NCBI RefSeq assembly: GCF_001889605.1
Contig: NZ_CP018171.1
Location: forward strand, 4,935,501 to 4,999,500
DNA: 64,000 nucleotides
Direction: 5' to 3'
Source: Aquibium oceanicum
GTDB taxonomy: Bacteria > Pseudomonadota > Alphaproteobacteria > Rhizobiales > Rhizobiaceae
This document shows, piece after piece, positions 33,564 to 46,037 of this stretch (its first letter is position 1; each line of letters begins with the position of its first letter). The position numbers were made by a program, and so were the translations under genes. The notes beneath the pieces were generated by a model. It had not been told where the DNA came from, made no database searches, and saw only the letters and a list, made by a program, of their open reading frames with translations.

Positions 33564-34034
33564 CTAGAGCAGGCTGACGCGTGCGCGGTTGAGGCGGCTC
33601 TTGACCGTGCCCATGGCGCAGCCGCAGACCTCCGCCACCTCCTCGTATCTCATGCCCAGCATGCCGATGAGCACGATCACCTCGCGATGCTGCACGGGCA
33701 GCCGGTTGATCGCCGCGACGAGTTCCTTAACGCGCACCGACCATTCCTGCGTGGCCTGCTCGATCGGGCGGACCGAAGCGCAGTCGGCGAGCCCCGGGAC
33801 CTCGCGGCTGTAGACCTTGATGCGAGTATAGAAGGTGTTGCGCATGATCGTGAACGGCCACGATTTTATCCGGGTGCCCGGCTCGAACTTGTCGAGGTTG
33901 GCAATGCCCTTCGTCAGCGTCTCTTGAAAGAAGTCGTCGGCGTCGGATACGTCGCGGTAGAAGCTGCGGGCAAAGGCGCGAAAGGCCGCGATTAGATCGA
34001 CCAGTTCCCTCTCGATCCCGTCTCTCTCCGGCAT
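33564..34034 (-). CDS. ECF RNA polymerase sigma factor, EcfG-like
   Basis: 156 aa. Region 2: DADDFFQETLTKGIANLDKFEPGTRIKSWPFTIMRNTFYTRIK. Region 4: LPVQHREVIVLIGMLGMRYEEVAEVCGCAMGTVKSRLNRAR, the helix-turn-helix that reads the -35. The QETLxKxxxNxDxFxPGTxxxxWxFTIxRNTFY pattern is that of EcfG-type general stress sigma factors. No NepR or PhyR gene lies next to it, so it is probably one of several EcfG paralogs. The C-terminus stops right after region 4. Confidence 0.85.
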   Translation of the reverse strand: MPERDGIERELVDLIAAFRAFARSFYRDVSDADDFFQETLTKGIANLDKFEPGTRIKSWPFTIMRNTFYTRIKVYSREVPGLADCASVRPIEQATQEWSVRVKELVAAINRLPVQHREVIVLIGMLGMRYEEVAEVCGCAMGTVKSRLNRARVSLL

Positions 34035-34290
34035 CGGATGTACCTGCAGCGATAAACACGATTAAAGACCTGTCGAAAAGTGGCCGGTCGCGGCATTGGT
34101 TCCTGGCAAACCCCTTCAGGATGAGATCGATACCATAGACAGCGGCATTCGCGGGTTTGCGAAGTGTTATGCTCGCTCCTCCATTCTGCCTCGCTATCGT
34201 CGCATTGGCGGACGGAGCGGACCATCCCATTAACTGAGGCCCGCTCGTAAGAAGCGAACCGGTGGCGCAGATATGTGGTAGTAGTTCGCA

Positions 34291-34455
34291 ACAGCTGCGC
34301 GACGCGTGTCCGCTACGGCTACGGACGCGCGTAAGGCAGTGCTCCACGCGCTCGGGAACATGAAGGACGCGAAAACCGCGGCGAAGGCCAGAGAGACGTT
34401 TGCCGATGCTGCGGACGAGGCCGTCAATCTCATGCCATCCCGCCCAAGTCGCTAG
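34291..34455 (+). pseudogene. DUF982 protein, C-terminal fragment
   Basis: The plus strand reads ARKAVLHALGNMKDAKTAAK then ARETFADAADEAVNLMPSR and a stop, paralleling the C-terminal half of the DUF982 gene at 47028 (VRKAVLKAMESAYTVTTARKAFAEAADEAGILLP). No start. The IS407-type element begins 38 bp downstream. Confidence 0.5.
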
Positions 34456-34511
34456 CGCCAGCCGGTTTCAAAACCCCCAAATTGGAACCGACCTGACCTG
34501 CCACTGAACTT

Positions 34512-35441
34512 TCATCCAGCGGCGGTTAGAGCCTTGGCCGTTTCTGTTACGCCGTAGGGCGCGGTTCGAGCAACCGGTGGAGACGCGAAGCCCTTATCGA
34601 GCGAAGCGTCGGAGGCGGTTGCGGCGAGAGTTCCGGCGAAGGCCGCCGGGGTCTGGTATCCGAGCGAGGAATGAGGTCTCGCAGAGTTGAAGTCCTGCCG
34701 CCACTCGGCGATGGCGTTGCGGGCGTGGTCGAGGCCGAAGAACAGGCTCTCGTTCAGGAGTTCGTCGCGCATCCGGCCGTTGAAGGATTCGACGTAACCG
34801 TTTTGCATGGGCTTGCCCGGCGCGATGTAGTGCCATTCGACGCGATGATCCTTCGACCAGGCGAGGATCGCGTTCGAGGTGAACTCCGTGCCGTGGTCGG
34901 AAACGATCATGTCCGGCTTGCCGCGACGGCTGATCAGATCGGTCAGCTCACGGGCCACCCGACGACCGGAGATCGACGTGTCGGGGATGGCGCCCAGGCA
35001 TTCGCGGGTCACGTCGTCGACGATGTTGAGCACGCGGAACCGCCGCCCGCAGGCAAACTGGTCGTGCACGAAGTCCAGCGACCAACGCGCGTTCGGCCTC
35101 GCCTCGACCAGGATCGGCGCCCGCGTGCCCACCGCGCGTCGCCGCGCCCGGCGCTTGCGCACTGTCAGCCCCTCCTCGCGGTAGAGCCGATAGATGCGGT
35201 TGATCCCTGATGGCTCGCCCTCGCGCCGCAGCAGGATGAACAGGCGCCGATAGCCGAAACGCCGGCGCTCGTTGGCGAGATCGCGCAGCCGGCCGCGCAG
35301 TTCGGTCTCCGGCGCCCGGCACGACTGGTAGCGGATCATCGTGCGATCGGCACCGACGATGGAACAGGCCCGACGCTCCGACAGACCCATGACGGCCTGC
35401 AGATGCGCGACGGCTTCGCGCTTGGCGGCGGGCCCTACCAT
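34512..35441 (-). CDS. IS407-like OrfB transposase
   Basis: 309 aa with the HTH_21 segment ([17 protein letters not shown]), then catalytic D in [10 protein letters not shown] in [11 protein letters not shown] and E in [18 protein letters not shown]. An A7 run (T7 at 35441-35447 on the plus strand) lies exactly where OrfA is left by a -1 slip (A AAA AAA), so the functional enzyme is probably an OrfAB fusion. Confidence 0.92.
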
Positions 35442-35701
35442 TTTTTTGACAGGAGCTCGCGAAGGGCCGAGGCTTCCAGCATCTGCTCGGCGAGCAGGTT
35501 CTTCAGCCTCCCGTTCTCGTCTTCCAAAGCCCTCAGGCGCTTGGCGTCGGACACGTCCATGCCGCCATACTTCGCCTTCCAGTTATACAGCGTCGCCTCA
35601 GAGACCCCGTGCTTGCGGGCCAGGTCACCTGCCTTCGCACCCGCCTCGTGCTCGCGTAGAACCCCGATGATCTGCTCTTCCGTAAATCGCTTTCGCTTCA
35701 T
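35435..35701 (-). CDS. IS407-like OrfA
   Basis: 88 aa HTH protein ([33 protein letters not shown]) followed by a zipper ([19 protein letters not shown]). Typical OrfA; its last codons contain the A7 slippery run. Confidence 0.92.
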
Positions 35702-35771
35702 CTGTCCGTCCTTCGATCGAGAGCCGGACTCTAACTCCAGGTGGAGGAAAAACTCAGTGGCAGGTCAGACC

Positions 35772-36220
35772 GAAGCCGAAGCGACTTTTTCCCATCCCGT
35801 GAAGCCGTGCGCGGCAGGCTCCATTTTCCCTTCGAGGCGCAGGCTGACCGGGACTTTCGGTGCGACCGAGATTGGAAGAGCAAGGCCCAGCGGGCATATC
35901 AGCGGCGTACGCAGGCGGCCGATGCGCTGATCGCCTCGGTCTTCCTTCCCGACACCAATACGCGCCGAATGCGCCGCGCAACTGCTACGCTGGTCGCTGG
36001 AGCCATCGGCAAGGACGTGGTCAGCCGCACTTGGCGCAAGGTCAATACCGGCCGGGATGCCTGTAACGCTCGCTCGCTGGCCGAGGAACCGATCATGCGC
36101 CTGATCCTGGACGGCACGATGGTCCGTGACAGGCTCGACCGCAAGGCGACCTCGCTCTCGCTGCTGGTAATCGTCGGCGTGCCCCGGATGATGCCGTGCT
36201 TTCGATCGATCGAGATGTAG
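35772..36220 (+). pseudogene. IS256-family transposase, N-terminal/middle remnant
   Basis: The plus strand reads DTNTRRMRRATATLVAGAIG, KDVVSRTWRKVNTGRDACNA and RSLAEEPIMRLILDGTMVRD then RLDRKATSLSLLVIVGV, the segment of IS256 (mutator) transposases around the first catalytic Asp (LDGT). The frame ends at 36220 before the rest of the DDE core. The upstream IS407-like insertion probably cut or displaced its 5' end. Confidence 0.65.
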
Positions 36221-36508
36221 CTTTTGTAGCCATGACGGGAATGGCGATGTCGATCTGAGGGGCGCCGTCCTCCTTCGGTTTGGCCCTGGAGAACTTCACC
36301 GTCCAATGGGCGTCGCGATCGGATGTCCCCATCAGTTGGCTTGATTTTTTTTTCACCAATTCTTACGAATACCGAGCGAATGAATATCGGCAGTGCAGAC
36401 CAACTTTCCCCGCGACCGTTGTCCGCAGTCCCATACCTCCTCTGTTGGCCGACCACACTTGAACATAGTTTGATCGCTGGTTCGCTCTGAGCGGTGATCC
36501 TTTTTGAC

Positions 36509-36766
36509 TCAGGGTTCACCCGGGTGTCCCGGCTCAGGGAGCACGTCGGTTTTTGTTCCATTCTGCGTATCGCGTCGATCCGTTCCGGCGCGGCAACGCG
36601 CTTCGATAAGCCATTCGAGGACGGCAAGATCGGCCAGCACATCATTGGGATTTCGCCGCCACGCCGATCTCAAAGCCGCCCTAAGCCAACGCCCGGTCTG
36701 TGCGCTCGCCAGGACCTCTTTGTATAACCGATCAGGTGATTTGGCAGTAGTTGATTTCTTGCTCAT
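36509..36766 (-). CDS. Hypothetical protein, 85 aa, last gene of dab operon
   Basis: ATG at 36766 lies 11 bp after the DUF6671 stop. The protein is helical and basic (PDRLYKEVLASAQTGRWLRA, NPNDVLADLAVLEWLIEARC) with a disordered tail. Same direction and spacing as the operon, but weak ribosome site. Function unknown. Confidence 0.5.
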   Translation of the reverse strand: MSKKSTTAKSPDRLYKEVLASAQTGRWLRAALRSAWRRNPNDVLADLAVLEWLIEARCRAGTDRRDTQNGTKTDVLPEPGHPGEP

Positions 36767-36776
36767 GCTCGTCATC

Positions 36777-37643
36777 TCAGGGGTTGCAGAACAGGCAATG
36801 AGCGGCCGAAGCGCGCGATGCCCGATCAGACGCTCTACGCCTTGAAACATGCTTGCACTTCACACAGCCGTAGACTTCCCAGAGTGGCAAAGTACTTGGT
36901 CCACCACACTCTTCGCATGGTAAGCCCGTCTCGATGTCAACGAGACCAAAGCCCGGGTTGTCGCAATCTGGACAGAGTGTCAGCAATCTGACCGCGAGCC
37001 TTCTGACGGCCTTCTGGATTGCGGCCATCCGGGTCGGGTTGAAGTGTGCACGCATGTCCGACGCGACGAGTGCTTTACCATCTTTGGATGACTTAGCGCA
37101 GACAGCGATTGCTTCGTCCAGCGCACAATAGGAGCCGATGCCCTTGAAGATTATTCCCGGTACGCGATCTGGCAAGTTCGGCCGGACGATCAGCGCATGC
37201 GAAGGAAAGTAGTTGTTCGTCAGAAAATCTTCGAGTTCGCTGATTGCCGCGACTGAGCGATGCGCAAAGACTGGCGCATCGACCACTAGATGCTCGTGGA
37301 CGATGATCCCAGCGACATCATCGACGAGAACAACAAGCTCGATGCCGCCTGGTACGAAAGGCAATTGAGGATGAGGACCATAAGCACCTTCGCTCGCAAG
37401 ACCGCGGGGCAGCTTCATAGCGGTCATGCCAAGCCGGGCTTTTGCCATAACTGTTTCGAGCATCGTGCCCTTGCGAGGAACTTCGCCGGTAAACGTGCCA
37501 AGCGCATCGGTATCGATCATCTCGGGTACGAGCACACTCAGTCCCAGAATGTCGTGAAGAATAGCGGAAAACGCCTGCTCCTTGCCATGCATGGTTGCGA
37601 GTGCGGCCTGTCCGCCATCATAAACGCTCAGAGGCCTGCCCAT
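36777..37643 (-). CDS. DUF6671 family protein with zinc-finger tail
   Basis: 288 aa from ATG 37643, which overlaps the cysD stop (TGATG). The conserved core is TMHGKEQAFSAILHDILGL, then DTDALGTFTGEVPRKGTMLE and KARLGMTAMKLPRGLASEGAYGPH, which I recognise as DUF6671. The C-terminus has four Cys pairs (CPDC, CEEC, CVKC, CLFC) forming two zinc knuckles. Biochemistry unknown; stop-start coupling to cysD suggests they act together. Confidence 0.8.
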   Translation of the reverse strand: MGRPLSVYDGGQAALATMHGKEQAFSAILHDILGLSVLVPEMIDTDALGTFTGEVPRKGTMLETVMAKARLGMTAMKLPRGLASEGAYGPHPQLPFVPGGIELVVLVDDVAGIIVHEHLVVDAPVFAHRSVAAISELEDFLTNNYFPSHALIVRPNLPDRVPGIIFKGIGSYCALDEAIAVCAKSSKDGKALVASDMRAHFNPTRMAAIQKAVRRLAVRLLTLCPDCDNPGFGLVDIETGLPCEECGGPSTLPLWEVYGCVKCKHVSRRRASDRASRASAAHCLFCNP

Positions 37644-38533
37644 CAAAAATAGCCTTCGCGTTTTTGTGCCTCCAGCGACGAACCATCGCCGACCCGGCCG
37701 TTTCGCTCCGAGATTCGGGCCGAGAAGGTTTCTTGCAGTACGGCGCCAAGGTCCGATGCCGACGACTTTGCCGCGGCCGTGACCGGCCAGCACCCCAGCG
37801 ACCGAAAACGCACGCCCATTGTCCTTATCGGCCCAAACTGGAAACGCTTCGCCTGCTCGGGTTGGTCAACCACGATCAGATTGCCATTGTGCTCTACGAC
37901 TGGCCGCGGCGCAGCGAAGTAGAGTGGACAAAGCTCGATACGATTGAAGAAGATGTAAGCCCACAAATCCTGCTCGGTCCAATTCGACAACGGATAGACG
38001 CGGAGGGTCTGCTCCGGGCTTCGGCGGAAATTGTAAATCGACCAAAGTTCCGGTCGTTGGTTCTTGGGATCCCAGCTGTGTTCCTTGCCCCGGACGGACA
38101 CGATGCGCTCCTTGGCCCTGGATGCTTCTTCATCTCGCCTGGCACCGCCGAGAATGACATCATAGCCACCCAGATCGAGAGCTTGCTTGAGCGCATCTGT
38201 CCGCATCATGGTCGTGTAGGTGGCGCCGTGATCAATCGGGTTCAGCCCCTCGCGTCGCCCTTCTTCGTTCACATGGGTGCGGAGTTCGAACTCGTTCGCA
38301 GCAGCGAAAGCATCGCGAAACGCAATTACATCGTTGAATTCCCACGTGGAGTCGACAAGCAACAGAGGGATAGGCGGTTTTGCCGGGTAGAATGCCTTGA
38401 CGGTAAGGTGTGCCAACACCGTTGAATCCTTGCCGCCAGAAAACAGGACCACGGCATTGCTGCTCTCGACCACCGCCTCCCGGATAATCCCGATTGCCTC
38501 ACTTTCCCTGTGCGAGAGATGCGTGAAGCTCAT
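37643..38533 (-). CDS. cysD: Sulfate adenylyltransferase subunit 2 (CysD)-like
   Basis: 296 aa. PP-loop SGGKDSTVLAHL (about 35-46) for ATP, DSTWEF, the GGARRDEEASRAKERIVSVR loop, NFRRSPEQTLRVYPLSNWTE, and the C-terminal RFRSLGCWPVT and EAQKREGYF. These are diagnostic for CysD, which with the GTPase CysN makes adenosine-5'-phosphosulfate. No cysN is present; the gene is instead joined to dabA (ATGA overlap) and DUF6671. Either it works with a CysN encoded elsewhere or it has been recruited to another adenylation. Confidence 0.85.
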   Translation of the reverse strand: MSFTHLSHRESEAIGIIREAVVESSNAVVLFSGGKDSTVLAHLTVKAFYPAKPPIPLLLVDSTWEFNDVIAFRDAFAAANEFELRTHVNEEGRREGLNPIDHGATYTTMMRTDALKQALDLGGYDVILGGARRDEEASRAKERIVSVRGKEHSWDPKNQRPELWSIYNFRRSPEQTLRVYPLSNWTEQDLWAYIFFNRIELCPLYFAAPRPVVEHNGNLIVVDQPEQAKRFQFGPIRTMGVRFRSLGCWPVTAAAKSSASDLGAVLQETFSARISERNGRVGDGSSLEAQKREGYF

Positions 38534-40890
38534 AATGCACCCCATCGGAGATCTCTGATGTAGCGGCTGGTCGGGCGGCCGAGATCGTCCAGGGCGACGA
38601 GCGAAAGCCAGGCGTTGTCGAACAACGCGCGTACACCTGTATGACGTTCCAAGATTGTTGTGATCGCATCGATAGGGGCAGCGACGAGGACGCAAAGGCG
38701 CACAGGATCATGAACAAGCCGTTCGCCATCGTGGACCGATTGCCAAGGTAAGCCGGTGCGAAGCGGTCCTGAGTTGCCTTCGAGCACACCAATGCCGCCC
38801 GCTACGTTGTGAAGCATTTTATTCCCCGATCCATACATGTCAGGCGCCACGCTCGAACCGAAATATTGGAGGCTGATCCAACTCGCCACGACAACCGGCG
38901 CCGTCATGATCAATTCAAGGACTTTGAACCCATCATCCTTGCGCCAGTCATAGTCATGCAAAAAACTACGCCCCTCCAGCGCGAGACCGCGTGTTCGAGA
39001 TCGCGGTGCGGCGATAAATGCCGCACATCCAGCCAAGCCCCATTCGGGCCGCAACTCGGACCAATCCTTGCCGCGGACAGTGAGGGAAGCGGCGTTGCTC
39101 GCACCGGGCAGACGGGCGGCGCGCTCGACCCGGGCAAGGGCACTCGCCTGATCAAGCCAACAGCGCGCTTGCGAAATTTGCGGCGTAAGGCCTTTCGCGA
39201 AATCTTCGAACAGAGTCACCTGGTCGGAGGTCGTGTCGTGCAATCCGGCAACGAACACGGTCTCCTGCGGGATGGTGATGCCCATGACCACCAGCCCTTG
39301 CCGAACCTCCGCCTCGTTGAGGATGCCGGCGAGCACTCTTGCGTTGACGTCGCCGGCGTGGCCTCCGCATGCTCCGCAATGCAGTGCGCTGGCGAACGGG
39401 TTGTTGACGACTTGCGCGCCGTGACCGATGAGCAGGATGAGTGGCGGAAAATCCTGCGTCATCGACATCGCCTGCAAAATGCCCGATGCCATTGTAATCT
39501 TGGTGCTGAGATCAGCGTTCAAATACGGCGCGGGCTCTGCCACAGTCGAGTCTTCTTGGCGGAGGGCGCCTCTCGCCAACCGGAGCGCGTATCCAAGACC
39601 GGCCGCCTCGACATAGGCAAAAGACGAAACGGCAGCGGCCTTGAACCGGTCCAGCGCTCTTCGAGCGCGTCTTGCGATTCTGGCGTTGGTATCCGGCAAT
39701 TGGTTTTCGCGCGTGGATGCCGTGGTAGACACCGCTGGAGGTAGCAGCACCGGCAGGCGATGTTCTGGGACATCGGAAGCGAAGCGATGATGCGAGGAGC
39801 CGATCCCAAAGAAGCCAGCGAAACCTCCTGTCTCGATACATGGTGAAACGCATTCCAACGCCCGCCGGAAAACCTCCGAGCGCACGTCGATACAAAAGAA
39901 CGCCTTTATTTCGGTCGGCTTGCCAGCCGGCTTGAGGGTATTCGTGGACAGTGTCCGTGCCAGATTTCTGCGGGAGGCCACTTCAACCGATGTTTGCAGA
40001 ACACAATCCACGAGAATGTCGTCGGACACGACCAGTGGAGCTGCGTGCGCTCTAAGTATGCCTGCCCATTTTTCCCGGCTGCGCGGTGACGCGAGATCAA
40101 GACATGCCTTTTCAAACTGAAGGTAAGCGGCCAGGAATCCATACAGTGTCTCGTCGCGTTCCCCTTTTTGTTCAGCCAGCCAGCCTGGCAACCGCGCCGC
40201 CTGCGCCCAGCCGCGGAGACGAAGCAGCAACTGATGGCAGTAGCTCTCCGCTGCTGTTTCGGAAACGCCGAGCTTGCCCAGCGCGGCGATTACCGCATCG
40301 GCTGTGCTGGCAGGCGCTCCTTGCGCTTTGCGGCAAAATCCTTTCAGGCCGACGAGTTCGGGAACGAGGTCGTGTGTCGCGAACTCACGCCAGCTGGCAA
40401 AGGCGTTCGCTAGTCTTGCCGGGCGCCACATTGCCTGGCCCTCATCGAAGTAGCCCTGAGCCCAAATCGACAACCTCTCTTCGACCAGCACTGGAAAATC
40501 GAACCCGCGTTCGGCGGAAAGGATATCCGCGACGGTGGCAAGCGGCCCTACAGGATCACGTTCCACCCCGGCGGCGGCTTTGACACTCGAGGCGTTCATG
40601 CGCGAATCCAGACCGAGATCACCAAGCGCTATTCCGATGTCACCATCTTCGATCTCTCCACTTGCCAGCCTGTCGCGGTACCAGGCTCGCGGCATGAGCG
40701 GATGCGGACCGCCAATCCGCTCCATACGCGCAGCAACGATTGGAAGAGTTTCTTCCGCGTGGCCGAGAAACGGGTTGACAGCAACGGTTGCGCTCAGCGG
40801 CCATGCAGGAGGGATCATCTGACAGGCCCGGTCGACTGCCTCGAGGACTGGGTTCGCAAAGAAGCCACTGGCCGAAGGAATCTGGTTCAT
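38530..40890 (-). CDS. dabA: DabA inorganic-carbon accumulation protein (DUF2309/UPF0753)
   Basis: 786 aa from the ATG at 40890, overlapping the dabB stop (ATGA). The carbonic-anhydrase-like zinc site is visible: FFCIDVRSEVFRRALE supplies C and D, and HGAQVVNNPFASALHCGACGG supplies H and C. Early motif PLSATVAVNPFLGHAEETLP is also typical. In the DAB systems of chemolithoautotrophs, DabA with the membrane subunit DabB drives bicarbonate accumulation using ion gradient energy. The zinc ligands are intact, so activity is expected. Confidence 0.9.
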   Translation of the reverse strand: MNQIPSASGFFANPVLEAVDRACQMIPPAWPLSATVAVNPFLGHAEETLPIVAARMERIGGPHPLMPRAWYRDRLASGEIEDGDIGIALGDLGLDSRMNASSVKAAAGVERDPVGPLATVADILSAERGFDFPVLVEERLSIWAQGYFDEGQAMWRPARLANAFASWREFATHDLVPELVGLKGFCRKAQGAPASTADAVIAALGKLGVSETAAESYCHQLLLRLRGWAQAARLPGWLAEQKGERDETLYGFLAAYLQFEKACLDLASPRSREKWAGILRAHAAPLVVSDDILVDCVLQTSVEVASRRNLARTLSTNTLKPAGKPTEIKAFFCIDVRSEVFRRALECVSPCIETGGFAGFFGIGSSHHRFASDVPEHRLPVLLPPAVSTTASTRENQLPDTNARIARRARRALDRFKAAAVSSFAYVEAAGLGYALRLARGALRQEDSTVAEPAPYLNADLSTKITMASGILQAMSMTQDFPPLILLIGHGAQVVNNPFASALHCGACGGHAGDVNARVLAGILNEAEVRQGLVVMGITIPQETVFVAGLHDTTSDQVTLFEDFAKGLTPQISQARCWLDQASALARVERAARLPGASNAASLTVRGKDWSELRPEWGLAGCAAFIAAPRSRTRGLALEGRSFLHDYDWRKDDGFKVLELIMTAPVVVASWISLQYFGSSVAPDMYGSGNKMLHNVAGGIGVLEGNSGPLRTGLPWQSVHDGERLVHDPVRLCVLVAAPIDAITTILERHTGVRALFDNAWLSLVALDDLGRPTSRYIRDLRWGAL

Positions 40891-42425
40891 GACCTGAGCC
40901 CCTTGGGTTCCGCATAGCTGCGCAAGGCTAGATCGAAGAGAAGGTTTGCGTAGAGCCCATTTTGGAGGTGAACCCTTAGTCCCGCGGCGGCGGGATGATC
41001 CGCCCAGTGTGGGAACATCGACTGAGCGAACGCCGTTATGGAGAAGGTGGTAAGAGCGAGCACGATCAACACCCACTCCAGAGGCCCGGCAAAGGGAACC
41101 GGTGCGACGGCGTCGCCGACCAGGAGAGTAACCCCCTGTTGCAGCGCAAAATATGCAACTGTCATCACCGCGGCATAGACGATGGTGCGGCGCGTAAGTG
41201 CTCCGGGCGCGGCATCGGCCAGACCCTGAGCGAACATATAGGCGATGCCCAGCACCAAGATGATCCCTAGAGCAACTGCTTGTGGCGGTTTATTCCACGC
41301 CTCGAAGAGCACTGCGACGACCGTGAACACCAGGAGCGCACAGAGAAACGCAAGCGCGACTGATCTCAGCGAGGGCACAGCTACGCGACCCGGCCGCTTT
41401 GCAGCGGTCACTCTCTCGACCACCCCTCCTGAAGAGAGGAAAGAGTGGGCCTTGTAAAAGGAGTGGGCAACGATATGGAGGAGAGCAAAGGCAAACAGAC
41501 CCAATCCGCACTGCATTATCATGAAGCCCATCTGTGCAATCGTCGACCAGGCAAGTGCGGTCTTGATTGCGGGCTGCGTTAGCATGACAAGGCTCCCGAT
41601 CAGCGCCGTGAAACCGCCGATCGCTACAAGCACAGCAAGGACGCCGGGCGCACCGACCAGGACGTCCGAGAATCGGATCAACAAAAACCCACCCGCGTTG
41701 ATCACGCCGGCATGAAGCAGGGCAGAGACCGGGGTCGGCGCCTCCATCACTTCCGTGAGCCACCCATGGAATGGAAACTGCGCGGATTTGAGAATGGCCG
41801 CTGCCGCGATTAGAGCCGCCGCAAGCGTCGTGCTTGCCGAGCCGGCAAATTGGCCGGCCTGCGCTGAAATCGTGGCGATGTGGCCGCTGCCAAACGTGTA
41901 CGCAAGCAGGATGAACGCGACTGTGAGACAGATGTCGCCGGCGCGGGCGAGCAGCCATTTCTTGCGGGCGGCCCGAATTGCAAGAGGCCGATGCGGATAG
42001 AAGATAAGCAGACGCTGCAGGAATAAGCTCGTGGCAAGCCACGCCAAGGCGAATAGCCAGAGCGTACCTGCCTGCACAAGAATGTGAACGGCGCACAACG
42101 TCAAAGTCATCCAGCCGAGAAAGCGGTCGCCGCCCTTCTCCTCGCGCAGATTGATCGTGCTGTAGCGCAAAACGATCAAGCCAACAAAAGCGATTAGACA
42201 AGATAATATTACCGTGATGTTATCAATCAGAATCGGCAAAAGCATTGCTTTATGACCGATTACCAACAGCATTGCCGAATTCAATGTGAATAAGAGCGAA
42301 ATGCTCGCAGCAATTAATACTACACAAGTCTTGATGAACCGCTGCTCGCCCGGTCGCAGAAGCGCGAATAGACCGGCGAAGGCCAGAAGCGCAGGAGCGG
42401 ATAAGGCAGTGATGTCAAGCAGCAT
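40887..42425 (-). CDS. dabB: DabB proton-conducting membrane subunit (NuoL-like)
   Basis: 512 aa, about 14 TM helices, with the Proton_antipo_M pattern: SAQFPFHGWLTEVMEAPTPVSALLHAG, KTALAWSTIAQMGFM, HIVAHSFYKAHSFLSSG. It matches the truncated NuoL/MrpA-type partner that sits beside DabA. First gene of the operon, 95 bp from the divergent lysR. Confidence 0.88.
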   Translation of the reverse strand: MLLDITALSAPALLAFAGLFALLRPGEQRFIKTCVVLIAASISLLFTLNSAMLLVIGHKAMLLPILIDNITVILSCLIAFVGLIVLRYSTINLREEKGGDRFLGWMTLTLCAVHILVQAGTLWLFALAWLATSLFLQRLLIFYPHRPLAIRAARKKWLLARAGDICLTVAFILLAYTFGSGHIATISAQAGQFAGSASTTLAAALIAAAAILKSAQFPFHGWLTEVMEAPTPVSALLHAGVINAGGFLLIRFSDVLVGAPGVLAVLVAIGGFTALIGSLVMLTQPAIKTALAWSTIAQMGFMIMQCGLGLFAFALLHIVAHSFYKAHSFLSSGGVVERVTAAKRPGRVAVPSLRSVALAFLCALLVFTVVAVLFEAWNKPPQAVALGIILVLGIAYMFAQGLADAAPGALTRRTIVYAAVMTVAYFALQQGVTLLVGDAVAPVPFAGPLEWVLIVLALTTFSITAFAQSMFPHWADHPAAAGLRVHLQNGLYANLLFDLALRSYAEPKGLRS

Positions 42426-42483
42426 GGCATTCTCCCCGAGAAGTCAGAACAGCTTAACAAAGGGGGCTTCCATCCATCAAATC

Positions 42484-42509
42484 GAAAGAATAGAATGGAT
42501 CGTTCTTTC
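42484..42509. promoter_or_regulatory. Candidate LysR operator
   Basis: GAAAGAA (42484-42490) and TTCTTTC (42503-42509) form a perfect dyad with a 12-bp spacer between dabB and the divergent lysR, 12 bp before the lysR ATG. LysR-type regulators usually bind such dyads and autoregulate. Confidence 0.5.
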
Positions 42510-42520
42510 ATGGAGAACAC

Positions 42521-43399
42521 ATGCTGCTGAATTACAACCATTTGCGGTATTTCTGGGCGGTAGCGCGGGAGGGAAACCTCACCCGGGTCGCCGAGCATAT
42601 GCGCGTGTCCCAGTCAGCGCTTTCGACCCAGATCAGGAAGCTCGAACACCAGCTTGGACACGAGCTATTCGATCGACGTGGCAGGAAACTCCTCCTTACC
42701 GAGGCGGGCAGGCTGGCGTTCGAGCATGCGGAAGCAATCTTCCGGACAGGTGATGAATTGGTGGGCACGCTTCGCGCGCAAGGAGAATCCCAAAGGATCA
42801 TTCGGATCGGTGCGCTGGCGACGTTGTCGCGCAACTTTCAGATGGAGTTTCTAGGTCCTTTGCTTCGCCAACCTGAACTCGAGATCGTGCTTCGATCAGG
42901 AAGCTGGGAGGAATTGCAGGCGGAGCTGGAGGCGCTGCGCCTCGACGTGCTTCTGGTTGACCGGCAGGTGCCCGCCGAGCCTGGAAGGCAATGGATCGTC
43001 CATCGGCTCGACGAACAACGGGTCGGCTTGGTCGGTACGCCTCGCTATGACACCGGTGAGACGCTGAAGAAGACTCTCAAGCAGTATCCTTTGATCCTCC
43101 CGACCGCTGCCAGCGGATTTCGCATGGGCTTCGATGCGCTCATCGACAAGATGGGCATCACGCCGCTCGTGAAAGCGGAAGTGGATGACATGGCCATGAT
43201 GCGCTTGATGGCACGGGAAGGCTCGGGGTTGGCTGTCGTGCCGCCGATCGTCGTGCGAGACGAGCTAGAGTCCGGGCTTTTGAAAGAGATACATCCATTG
43301 CCCGGGATCGTAGAGACCTTCTATGCCGTAGCCATTGCCAGAAAATTCCCCAATCCTGTTCTTGCAACCCTCTTGGGGCGTGGATCCGGGGAACATTGA
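42521..43399 (+). CDS. LysR-family regulator of the dab operon
   Basis: 292 aa; GGAG precedes the ATG. N-terminal winged HTH: LNYNHLRYFWAVAREGNLTRVAE, VSQSALSTQIRKLEHQLG, LFDRRGRKLLLTEAG. The effector domain has GLVGTPRYDTGETLKK, AVVPPIVVRDEL. The YNHLRYFWxVAREGNLTRVAE start is that of the NhaR/LysR subgroup which often sits beside dab or Na+/H+ transporter genes. Divergent orientation implies control of dabBA and downstream genes. Confidence 0.88.
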   Translation: MLLNYNHLRYFWAVAREGNLTRVAEHMRVSQSALSTQIRKLEHQLGHELFDRRGRKLLLTEAGRLAFEHAEAIFRTGDELVGTLRAQGESQRIIRIGALATLSRNFQMEFLGPLLRQPELEIVLRSGSWEELQAELEALRLDVLLVDRQVPAEPGRQWIVHRLDEQRVGLVGTPRYDTGETLKKTLKQYPLILPTAASGFRMGFDALIDKMGITPLVKAEVDDMAMMRLMAREGSGLAVVPPIVVRDELESGLLKEIHPLPGIVETFYAVAIARKFPNPVLATLLGRGSGEH

Positions 43400-43528
43400 T
43401 ACGCTCCACTATTACGGAAAAAGCTGACCTTCGCTTGGCATAAGTAGATAGCCGGGGTCGAAACCCAGTCGGGCTATTGAAGGTCTGCAACAAATCAGAT
43501 TCGCTGTCGTCGCTTTACGGCGGAGGCG

Positions 43529-44050
43529 ATGATGAGGAGGCATTTCTGGCTGGACGACGAGGCGTGGGCGGCGATCGAGCTGCACCTTCCAAGGAAACAG
43601 CCGGGCGCGCGCCGAGTCGATGATCGGCGCATCATCAGCGGCATCCTGCATGTGCTGAAGGCCGGCTGCCGCTGGCAGGACTGCCCGGCCATTCTGCCGC
43701 TGACCGCCGACAACGTCGCCCACTTCACCATGGCCGGGCCACTGATGGACGCGGCCGGTCGGGCGCGCTGCCTGATCGCCGACAAAGGCTACGACGCCAA
43801 TGCGCTGCGCAAGCGCCTGCACGCCAAAGGTGCCGAGGCCATCATTCCCGGGCGCTCGAACCGGAAGGTGCCGATCGACTACGACGAAGTCCGCTACAAG
43901 GGACGCTGGCGCATCGAGGCCGCCTTCTGCAGGCTGAAGGACTTCCGCCGCATCGCTACCCGCTACGACAAGCTCGCCCAAAACTTCCTCTCGGCCGTCG
44001 CGCTCGCAACCCTCGTCGCATTCTTGGGTCTGAATGAGTCTCAACCTTAG
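43529..44050 (+). pseudogene. IS5-family transposase with internal deletion
   Basis: 173 aa; HFWLDDEAWAAIELHLPRKQ and GGRR-like DDRRIISGILHVLKAGCRWQDC are the N-terminus, but the frame then jumps to LIADKGYDANALRKRL and RYKGRWRIEAAFCRLKDFRRI, the C-terminal DDE part. About 80-90 residues, including the first catalytic Asp (DSTHVK region), are missing in-frame. Non-functional. Clear inverted ends were not found. Confidence 0.75.
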
Positions 44051-44148
44051 CCAAAATCGGGAGCCTCGGCCAACGGGGACACGAGATCACCGAAGCTTAC
44101 TATCGCCAGTATTGATGAACGCGAACATTAGTATCCTGGCAGTTGGTA

Positions 44149-46037
44149 TTACCCAACGATGCGCAGGTTCGACAATTCGTCCGCGATTTCCTTGAACTTG
44201 TCGGAAAGATTGGCGCCGGTCGCGTTCCAGTAGAGCTTCGCGGGGCTTCCCGAACTGTCGTTGCGGAAGCGGGAGTTGGACGAGCACGCCTTCAGCGCGT
44301 CGATCTGCGCTTTCTCGTCGGACTTGGAGGTGCTGAGGTCGAGCGACACGGTCATGACGATGATGCCCTTGGCCTTGGCGCTTTCGCAAAGAGCGTTCAT
44401 CTGCTGCGTCATGGCGCTGGTGTAGTTGTCGTTCGAATAGGTGGTCTTCCCGACCGTGGTGCCCATGAACATGCGGGTGTAGGATTCGCCCGGCTGCTTC
44501 AGGCCGGTGTAGCCGTAGGCCGAATAGGTCGACTTGTTGGCCGCCGCGTCGGCGTATCCCAGCGAACTCGGCGTGTAGTAGGTGTTGGCGCCGTCGGTGA
44601 GCACGATGACGACCTTGTCGTTGCCCTTCTCGGTCTCCACCCTGCCCTCGGTGAAGGGAGCATCGTGGGAAACGGTCCGCCATCCCCAGGCCAGGCCTTC
44701 GGGAACGTTCGTCGCCCCAGCGGGGTCATCGCGTCGATCGCGTCCTCGATCTTCTTCTTACCGGCCGCGACGCTGACGTCGACGAGCGCCGTGATCGGCT
44801 TGGTGGTGCAGGAATCGTTCGGCCCGCTGCTGGCTGCCGCGGCGGACGTGCCCTCCCCGGCCGGCGTGAAGTATTTGGGCATGTATTTCTGCCGCGTCGA
44901 GGCGCTGCTGGACGTCGTCACGTCGACCCACCAGCTGTTGGGTGCCGAACCGCCCGAGGTCTGGTCTGTCTCGTCGGGGGCGAACATCGGGACGAAGAGC
45001 GTCGCCGGCGTCGCCGTGACAGGCGCGGCATCATTGAGGTTGTAGGGATAGGGCCGCGCCTCGACGCATCCCTGCCAGCCGGCGAAGGCGCCGTATGAAT
45101 ACTGGTACGCGCCGTTGTCGACCCAGCCATAGGTCCGGCACGATCCGCTCGACCTGTACGAGGTGCACACATACTGCATGTCAGCGACCCAGGACTTGCC
45201 GGTGACCCGCTTGACGTCGTTGAACATGGTGAAGCGGGTGACCTTCTGGTTCTCCTGCGCGCCCCAGTCCGCGCCCTTCTTGTAATAGATGCCGCCCGAC
45301 AGCTGCACCTTCTTGGTCGAAGGCATGGTGGTCCAGTCGAAATCCTCGTGATGGATCGGCGAACGGCCATCGACGTCCATCCACGCAGCGGTGGCGTTGG
45401 AGGGACCGACATTCACGGAAGCCGCAAACGGGACGAGCGAGAACTGCACCGGCTTGTCGACCTGCTTGAGCTGGTCGGCCTGCGCGGCGAGCGTGGAAAC
45501 GAGTTGCTTGGCGGCATCGCGCAGAAGCACGATCCGCTTCTTCCCCGATCCCGAGCCCGTGTAGTCCATCGAGCCGGAGTTATCGAGAACGAGCGCGACC
45601 TCGAGCGTGTTCTTCAACCTCACCTTCGTCTCGGCCTGGAAGTCCAGCACCGCCTTGTCGCTGCCGATGAGGCTGGTGAACCCGTCGAGGAAGAAGGGCT
45701 TGAAACTATGTGTCGCCGAGATCGTCAGCACACCGCCGCCGGTCCCCTCGTTGGGAAGGACGAGCGTGAACTTCGCGCCACCACCATCGATCCCGTTCAG
45801 GTTGGCGAGGAAGAAGTCCTTCGCGTAGGCGGTGGTCGCATCCTTGCTGGCGCCTTCGACGTAGTAGCGCGCAGCGGCGATGCCGGCCGCATCGAGGGCG
45901 TTCTGGACGATCGCCCGTTCTCTCGAAAGCTCGGTATAGTCCACCGCCAGAGCGAGCGAGCCCAGGATCGGGATGATCGCCACCGCCGTGGCGATTGCAT
46001 AATCGCCACGCACATCACGCAAGAATTTTCGGAACAT
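44149..46037 (-). pseudogene. TadG-like VWA pilus assembly protein, frameshifted
   Basis: Starts RKFLRDVRGDYAIATAVAII and LALAVDYTELSRERAIVQNAL (TadE/TadG anchor), followed by a von Willebrand A domain with MIDAS LVLDNSGSMD and later VIVLTDGANT. At AIDAMTPL the frame is lost; adding one G to the GGGG run (C-run 44715-44718) restores GATNVPEGLAWGWRTVS and the rest to the stop at 44149, giving about 629 residues. The single-base loss in a homopolymer could be real or a sequencing error. No tad genes adjoin. Confidence 0.8.

Follow-up and report, generated by a model that had tools for sequence, protein, structure and literature searches.

The closest described counterparts of the gene set analysed here are the DAB/MpsAB complexes for uptake of inorganic carbon (Ci), in which MpsAB corresponds to DabAB. 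DabAB couples CO2 hydration to the membrane potential to yield bicarbonate, as set out in the accessible part of PMC13144422. The bicarbonate transporter MpsAB is needed by Staphylococcus aureus for growth at atmospheric CO2 (accessible parts of PMC6689103 and PMC8552792), so that a DAB-type function in a non-autotroph is, by analogy, ordinary. We analysed a stretch of 64,000 nucleotides from Aquibium oceanicum (NZ_CP018171.1, positions 4,935,501 to 4,999,500; hereafter the window), in which a dabB-dabA pair is followed by genes for a CysD paralogue (CysD-E), a DUF6671 protein and a small protein. This gene set very probably serves the supply of CO2 or bicarbonate to the cell.

Comparison with DAB complexes and layout of the operon

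In DabA of the window, Cys333, Asp335, Arg337, His490 and Cys505 fitted the active site of DabA2 by motif and spacing (Cys351, Asp353, Arg355, His524 and Cys539, respectively; site from the accessible part of PMC13144422). As for membership of a DAB Ci uptake complex, both the DabA-family Cys/Asp-Arg/His/Cys site and an adjacent DabB were present. Unlike DAB/MpsAB complexes, the window carried cysD-E, DUF6671 and the small gene as additions in the same direction; these went unmentioned in the portions of the DAB/MpsAB literature that were covered. DAB is already known, and its extension by DUF6671 and CysD-E seems to be a new variant; a literature search, mostly without subscription papers and partly of titles and abstract openings, returned no paper on DUF6671 or on the dab-cysD-DUF6671 linkage.

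The order of genes on the minus strand was dabB-dabA-cysD-DUF6671-fifth small gene, with a LysR gene divergent from them. Overlaps of ATGA joined both dabB to dabA and dabA to cysD, an overlap of TGATG joined cysD to DUF6671, and a gap of 1 nucleotide (nt) separated DUF6671 from the small gene; because of these junctions the five genes very probably form a single transcript. The original prediction, made from the bare sequence, was of a dabB-dabA-cysD-DUF6671 operon with a divergent LysR gene and five genes overlapping or nearly touching, and both Pfam and the junctions agreed with its genes and their orientation. It had also called the grouping of DabAB, an orphan CysD and a DUF6671 zinc protein unusual, which was upheld: the combination is present, unusual and conserved, and DUF6671 has zinc-ribbon cysteines.

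Recurrence of the linkage

A search of 61 relatives found DUF6671 in four genomes, including that of the window. The arrangement in G011 (LysR/dabB-dabA-cysD-DUF6671-small) was identical to that of the window, and G049 had the same gene order with a short-type CysD. G024 had the order DabA-DUF6671-small, the first two being separated by no more than a CysD-like C-terminal piece of 58 aa. LysR counterparts with 55-57% identity occupied the same place in all three. Beyond these, a plasmid of Mesorhizobium terrae carried LysR/dabB-dabA-cysD-DUF6671-small in the order of the window, and a plasmid of Mesorhizobium sp. INR15 carried all five genes too, but had a HAD-family gene inserted between LysR and dabB. 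Confinement of the linkage to this strain had been named in advance as an outcome that would count against it; instead, the order of the window was found in G011 and on the M. terrae plasmid, and nearly the same order in INR15.

In a class-wide draw of 385 genomes, DUF6671 was present in 14, DabA in 48 and both in eight, one of which (G188) has only a DUF6671 fragment with stops. DabA thus occurred in 8/14 genomes with DUF6671 vs. 40/371 others (Fisher p = 5.6e-5; with the window genome left out, 2.6e-4). On plasmids, nine of the ten DUF6671 loci covered, out of 12 plasmid records (matches H10 and H11 lay outside the ten), had a DabAB or SbtA-type open reading frame (ORF) within 9 kb; on the tenth, L252, pyrC lay on one side of DUF6671 and a gene for acyl-CoA carboxylase beta on the other.

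Gene neighbourhoods of DUF6671

Neighbourhoods were counted in 74 loci, which are the best 80 of at least 574 confirmed relatives from a profile scan of genome contigs, minus six near-copies (L104, L105 and L107-L110, which matched L111 at 99.4-99.99% identity in the part compared); L037 was left out as it had no usable DUF6671 ORF. This set shares two loci with the set of 16 from the family, order and class of the window genome (L083 and L028 are one contig, as are L114 and L026). By scripted count, DabA or DabB lay within 9 kb of DUF6671 in 31/74 loci and an SbtA-family permease in 14/74 (confirmed by PF05982 in three examples). DabAB or SbtA totalled 47/74 loci once L085 and L070 were added, where fused ORFs had been scored by the script as DabA and PurK. 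Over the same distance, NCBIfam identified PyrC in 12 loci, IlvD and TsaC in seven each, PurK, PurE and FolC in five each and formate dehydrogenase in three, and an acyl-CoA carboxylase-like protein lay in five, with matches only below cut-off although it is so annotated in L252.

Several of these neighbours have a bearing on CO2. PurK, TsaC and acyl-CoA carboxylases use bicarbonate, and FolC is a carboxylated-lysine enzyme. A carboxylated lysine is also described for IlvD (PMC9314677) and for dihydroorotase (PMC8659124), in the accessible parts of both sources. Dimer-type PyrC was over cut-off once in 9/11 genomes, twice in G461 and not at all in G458, where the match was split. The other dihydroorotase type was over cut-off in 10 of the 11 genomes with a DUF6671-linked dimer-type PyrC (just under in G463), so the linked PyrC is likely an extra isozyme. 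For PurK an extra-copy reading was not supported, with one copy over cut-off in 7/7 genomes.

Two fused genes support a direct link of DUF6671 to DabA and PurK. In a Parachlamydiaceae chromosome (CP058704, L085), a frame of 1034 aa joined DabA (residues 9-737) to DUF6671 (754-1034), and in a Desulforudis record (L070) a frame of 715 aa joined PurK (1-375) to DUF6671 (431-715); both records are metagenome-assembled genomes by title, and a frame-joining sequencing error is possible in them. In Synechococcus (L082), a gene for a P-II family protein lay between DUF6671 and SbtA. The likeness to SbtA-SbtB with its PII-like regulator lies in this adjacency to SbtA, and in L082 to SbtA plus a P-II family protein; in contrast to the regulator, DUF6671 is not PII-like and also partners DabAB and metabolic enzymes. 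With DabAB or SbtA in 47/74 loci, other neighbours that use CO2 or bicarbonate or carry a carboxylated lysine, and two fusions, DUF6671 marks inorganic-carbon supply, not sulfate.

In L082 (7298-11662, similar in L065, L081, L100 and L115), DUF6671 faces the P-II gene and sbtA and adjoins an NMT1-type ABC transporter gene; these Synechococcus loci have flavodiiron-type genes close to DUF6671 as well. Transporters of the CmpA/NrtA type near cyanobacterial DUF6671 were not counted, being indistinguishable from nitrate or other transporters (NMT1-type domains, one SsuA-like below cut-off). In L064, L079, L084, L089, L111, L250 and L253, DUF6671 was accompanied by a small winged-helix-like protein whose sequence starts in the manner of 'WTFLTNHAHVLLCIARD' and which perhaps replaces LysR there. 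TerC/Alx-family membrane proteins lay within 9 kb of DUF6671 in L244, L246, L248, L250 and L253, as well as in six of the 74 genome loci.

A CysD paralogue with an acidic residue 65

The operon CysD aligned end to end with CysD of the CysDN sulfate adenylyltransferase (1zun_A, E = 7.4e-92), was about 50-57% identical to most full-length canonical CysDs compared, and kept the PP-loop SxGKDS and most conserved charged residues. It scored 357.5 bits against NF003587 (cut-off 195), but did not reach the cut-off of either of two stricter CysD models (NF009214, 372.6 of 413; TIGR02039, 359.8 of 396.6). It further differed from 1zun_A in having Glu65 for Lys and no cysN beside it, so that of the marks of CysDN membership the family and PP-loop were present and Lys65 and adjacent cysN absent. 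No CysN was found in the 64-kb window. This CysD is a second copy, as a normal cysDN lies elsewhere in the genome (G000) at about 2.816 Mb. Among 14 genomes with a DUF6671-linked CysD, 12 had a separate CysD adjoining a CysN-like gene, the CysN-like match being below the model cut-off in G449, G452 and G454. In G445, CysD and CysN were on different contigs, and in G064, listed as 100% complete, the linked CysD was the only one over cut-off and the best match to the CysN model reached 55 bits vs. 336.

In every lineage compared, linked and canonical CysDs parted at one alignment position, residue 65 in the numbering of the window (L169 and L178 were left out of the canonical column list, and both are in the count that follows). 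Over 67 distinct CysD ORFs, this residue was Glu or Asp in 20, Lys in 46 and Asn in one. Of the 18 that had DUF6671 no more than 6 kb away, 17 carried Glu65; the other is on plasmid L248, where CysN lies right behind CysD. Where neither DUF6671 nor DabA nor SbtA was in view (47 CysDs), 45 had Lys65, one had Asn (L137) and one had Glu (L252), this last with DUF6671 8 kb off on the same plasmid. Two CysDs adjoined DabA with no DUF6671 in view, one with Glu (L208/L237, a short contig) and one with Asp (L236). All 20 acid CysDs were thus near DUF6671 or DabA, and none had a CysN in the DNA examined; an apparent CysN match in L043 was rejected because it falls where the DUF6671 ORF is extended out of frame across cysD. 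A cysN in the same operon type was the other outcome that the original prediction had held to be damaging: CysN lay within 9 kb of DUF6671 in 0/74, 0/16 and 1/10 loci, and at the sole CysN-bearing locus (L248) the locus's own K-type CysD adjoins that CysN.

Two arrangements stand apart. In L087 an acid CysD sits between two DUF6671 genes, downstream of dabB-dabA. In L236 (7563-11954), dabA is followed by the Asp65 CysD, and its genome, G099, does not belong to the 14 class genomes in which DUF6671 was matched; here the acid CysD may have DabA as its only partner.

Trees of 30 and 42 CysDs (the latter with the 20 acid and 22 of the 47 other sequences) placed at least four changes of the residue-65 label on well supported branches. 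These changes concerned an alpha- and gammaproteobacterial plus acidobacterial clade, a planctomycete, Melainabacteria-type genomes, and G049. If Lys was ancestral, an acid would have been gained at least four times, and such repetition argues for a required carboxylate and not for the mere loss of binding to sulfate or CysN. Since a near-invariant residue is changed and no CysN lies beside it, we infer that the operon CysD is set apart from sulfate CysDs as a neofunctionalised ATP-pyrophosphatase with a changed acceptor or partner. A new acceptor, mimicry of a carboxylated lysine and a regulatory role are all candidates for what the change brings.

Predicted fold of the DUF6671 protein

An AlphaFold 2 (AF2) model from a 70-sequence alignment had a predicted local distance difference test score (pLDDT) of 93.3 and a predicted template modelling score of 0.88. 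Its C-terminal part holds two sets of cysteines (C224, C227, C243 and C246; C260, C263, C283 and C286), all eight invariant in the alignment and arranged as four CxxC pairs, which fits two zinc ribbons. Foldseek against the Protein Data Bank (PDB) placed Escherichia coli RdgB, YjjX and human ITPA on top, with Maf and archaeal NTPases lower, amid unrelated folds; against a viral library, an inosine/xanthosine triphosphatase came first and a HAM1 NTPase fifth. In the hhalign register, the invariant K21 and K68 aligned with K13 and K53 of RdgB, and the invariant E85 falls, judging from spacing, at about the position of the RdgB DDSG residues; these RdgB residues presumably have functional roles there. 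The N-domain is compared with HAM1/RdgB and YjjX pyrophosphatases for its weakly similar fold and these lysines, and differs from them in a marginal sequence relation, the added double zinc ribbon and other gene neighbours. It is likely an ITPase-like nucleotide-binding domain.

Other searches were negative. Global mode in hhalign and a single YjjX gave no useful match to DUF6671, a PDB sequence search with DUF6671 returned nothing below E = 0.2 (the chains listed were mostly zinc-ribbon or other small zinc domains), and of 17 pattern matches to DUF6671 in viruses none was confirmed.

Proposed role and alternatives

Taken together, we hold it to be probable, with appreciable room for doubt, that the genes form a LysR-controlled CO2-limitation operon in which DabAB for Ci supply works with a nucleotide-pyrophosphatase-like DUF6671 protein and a neofunctionalised CysD-E. 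Here, LysR would control the operon under CO2 limitation, and DabB-DabA would drive one-way hydration of CO2 to cytosolic bicarbonate, as established for relatives and in keeping with the conserved active-site residues. From its neighbours and the two fusions, DUF6671 may act where bicarbonate supply meets the enzymes that consume CO2 or bicarbonate, probably binding or hydrolysing a nucleotide. CysD-E, with its PP-loop kept, Glu for Lys and no CysN beside it, would serve DUF6671 or DabA instead of cysteine synthesis. We infer the CO2-limitation role, the control by LysR and the nucleotide chemistry from gene content and comparison.

A number of observations weigh against this proposal. The 74 loci are best matches to the window and no random sample, with several from related species. 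No tested carbon-related family was found in 14 of them (16 by script, less L070 and L085), nor in 7/16 loci of the family, order and class set, and isocitrate dehydrogenase (8/74) and TerC (6/74) within 9 kb have no simple fit. The single copy of PurK means that those loci are housekeeping operons. CysD occurred in only 11/74 loci, so CysD-E is optional, and many canonical CysD loci were shorter than 4 kb, their wider neighbourhood lying outside view. The Foldseek matches of DUF6671 were weak (best E = 1.7e-3, none at or below 0.001; query template modelling score about 0.2-0.33), and the hhalign match of its N-domain to HAM1 was marginal (profile positions 12-82, P = 0.0025), albeit first of 42 alignments (next 0.062).

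A coupling of CO2 supply to sulfate assimilation, with the operon CysD and the chromosomal CysN making adenosine 5'-phosphosulfate at low CO2, would accord with the identity of this CysD to canonical ones, with its kept PP-loop and charged residues and with the cysN elsewhere in the genome. We consider it unlikely, given the repeated difference from K65 to E/D, the lack of a CysN over cut-off in G064 and of any CysN with the 20 acid CysDs, and recurrent DUF6671 partners that are otherwise mostly carbon-related, not sulfur-related. The suggestion in the original prediction that the operon may link CO2 supply to sulfate found no support, as DUF6671 partners two unrelated bicarbonate uptake systems plus CO2-using enzymes, and the operon CysD is altered with no CysN beside it. 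A link to another adenylation pathway, which that prediction had put forward as well, may still hold.

Quite unlikely, too, is that canonical CysD needs CO2 through a carboxylated Lys65 and that acid CysD is a CO2-independent version, working with CysN during CO2 starvation. Each of the replacements, of which there were at least four, was by an acid, and DUF6671 loci also contain the carboxylated-lysine enzymes PyrC, IlvD and FolC. Nevertheless, the linked PyrC, FolC and IlvD retained the lysine in all cases with a recognisable motif (for FolC, L064 and loci of the L104-L111 type gave none), so that lysine-free, CO2-independent copies were not seen; G064 has no CysN over cut-off for such a CysD to work with, and we know of no report of a carboxylated lysine in CysD, though no search aimed at one was made.

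An extension of our proposal, to which we give little chance, is that CysD-E and DUF6671 carry out an ATP-driven activation of bicarbonate. Bicarbonate would take the place of sulfate or water to give a carboxyl-nucleotide, and activated CO2 would pass to carboxylating or carboxylated-lysine enzymes under CO2 scarcity, the catalyst being either CysD-E as an ATP-pyrophosphatase or DUF6671 itself through its NTP-pyrophosphatase-like fold.

It is very unlikely that DabAB and CysD handle another oxyanion, such as sulfite, selenate or molybdate, in place of bicarbonate: CysD does act on oxyanions, but the active-site residues of DabA are kept and the partners of DUF6671 also include SbtA, SbtA with a P-II protein, PurK/PurE, TsaC and carboxylase genes. 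That DUF6671 is an unrecognised carbonic anhydrase, as a probable zinc protein found mostly near CO2 or bicarbonate genes could suggest, is highly improbable, for its eight invariant cysteines form four zinc-ribbon-type CxxC pairs and its fold is likely ITPase-like; a role as stand-in carbonic anhydrase was rejected, with a beta-carbonic anhydrase (PF00484) in 40/43 DUF6671 genomes searched. Scarcely credible is that these are passenger genes of mobile islands with no functional link, for which transposase genes flanking the operon, plasmid-borne copies elsewhere and the failure to find DUF6671 in four congeners speak, and against which stand the tight gene overlaps, the DUF6671 fusions, recurrence across phyla and the identical CysD difference repeated.

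Control region, fifth gene and flanks

Coordinates of the operon and its flanks are given in Table 1. The promoter scan placed no site within the 95-bp divergent region, promoter and terminator scores were not above those of shuffles, and no Rfam match was found across 34000-46000. The family of the fifth gene recurs after DUF6671 elsewhere, and a profile of ten homologues picked out this gene among 603 ORFs of the window. Neither it nor three homologues had a Pfam match; a model from four sequences gave three helices (pLDDT 72.6). None of six proteins tested for a defence-system reading matched in PADLOC.

Table 1. Features of the operon region and its flanks (window coordinates, except for the protein domains, which are in residues).
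Feature	Position	Strand	Basis and remarks
Transposase gene with integrase-core domains	34512-35441		Pfam; flanks operon
Fifth operon gene, 88-aa helical protein	36509..36775	-	Profile of ten homologues, E 3e-14
DUF6671 protein, 288 aa	36777..37643	-	PF20376, E 1.8e-40
DUF6671 domains	residues about 1-221; C-terminal		ITPase/HAM1-like N-domain; two zinc-ribbon-like Cys sets (AF2, Foldseek, hhalign)
cysD-E, 296 aa, orphan CysD paralogue, Glu65	37643..38533	-	PAPS_reduct, E 4.9e-42; NF003587; 1zun_A
dabA, 786 aa, beta-carbonic anhydrase-like zinc subunit	38530..40890	-	PF10070, E 1.8e-230
dabB, 512 aa, proton-conducting membrane subunit	40887..42425	-	PF00361 (Proton_antipo_M), E 2.1e-38
Divergent intergenic region, 95 bp	42426..42520	.	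Presumed control region, from sequence
LysR-family regulator gene	42521..43399	+	PF00126 and PF03466 (HTH_1, LysR_substrate); divergent from operon
IS4/5-type transposase gene	43529-44050		Pfam; flanks operon

A gene for a sigma-70-family factor, similar to extracytoplasmic function (ECF) factors, lies on the minus strand at 33564-34034, beyond the transposase gene at 34512-35441. A second dabA of the same genome is a broken N-terminal remnant (G000:C1:841075-841476, L038) with two in-frame TAG codons, and a LysR gene lies close to it. Searches of four further genomes of the genus, of which one is only 69% complete, returned no DUF6671, and the operon segment therefore looks accessory.

Implications

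The label 'sulfate adenylyltransferase subunit CysD' in annotations of DAB operons (L245, L251) may mislead. The change from Lys to an acid in CysD, at least four times and beside DUF6671 or DabA, is a sharp evolutionary marker that makes one residue and one operon testable. DUF6671 gains a functional frame, within a conserved gene set tied to the CO2-limitation physiology of non-autotrophs. If bicarbonate activation were true, DUF6671 would define an unrecognised CO2-starvation system across bacterial phyla.

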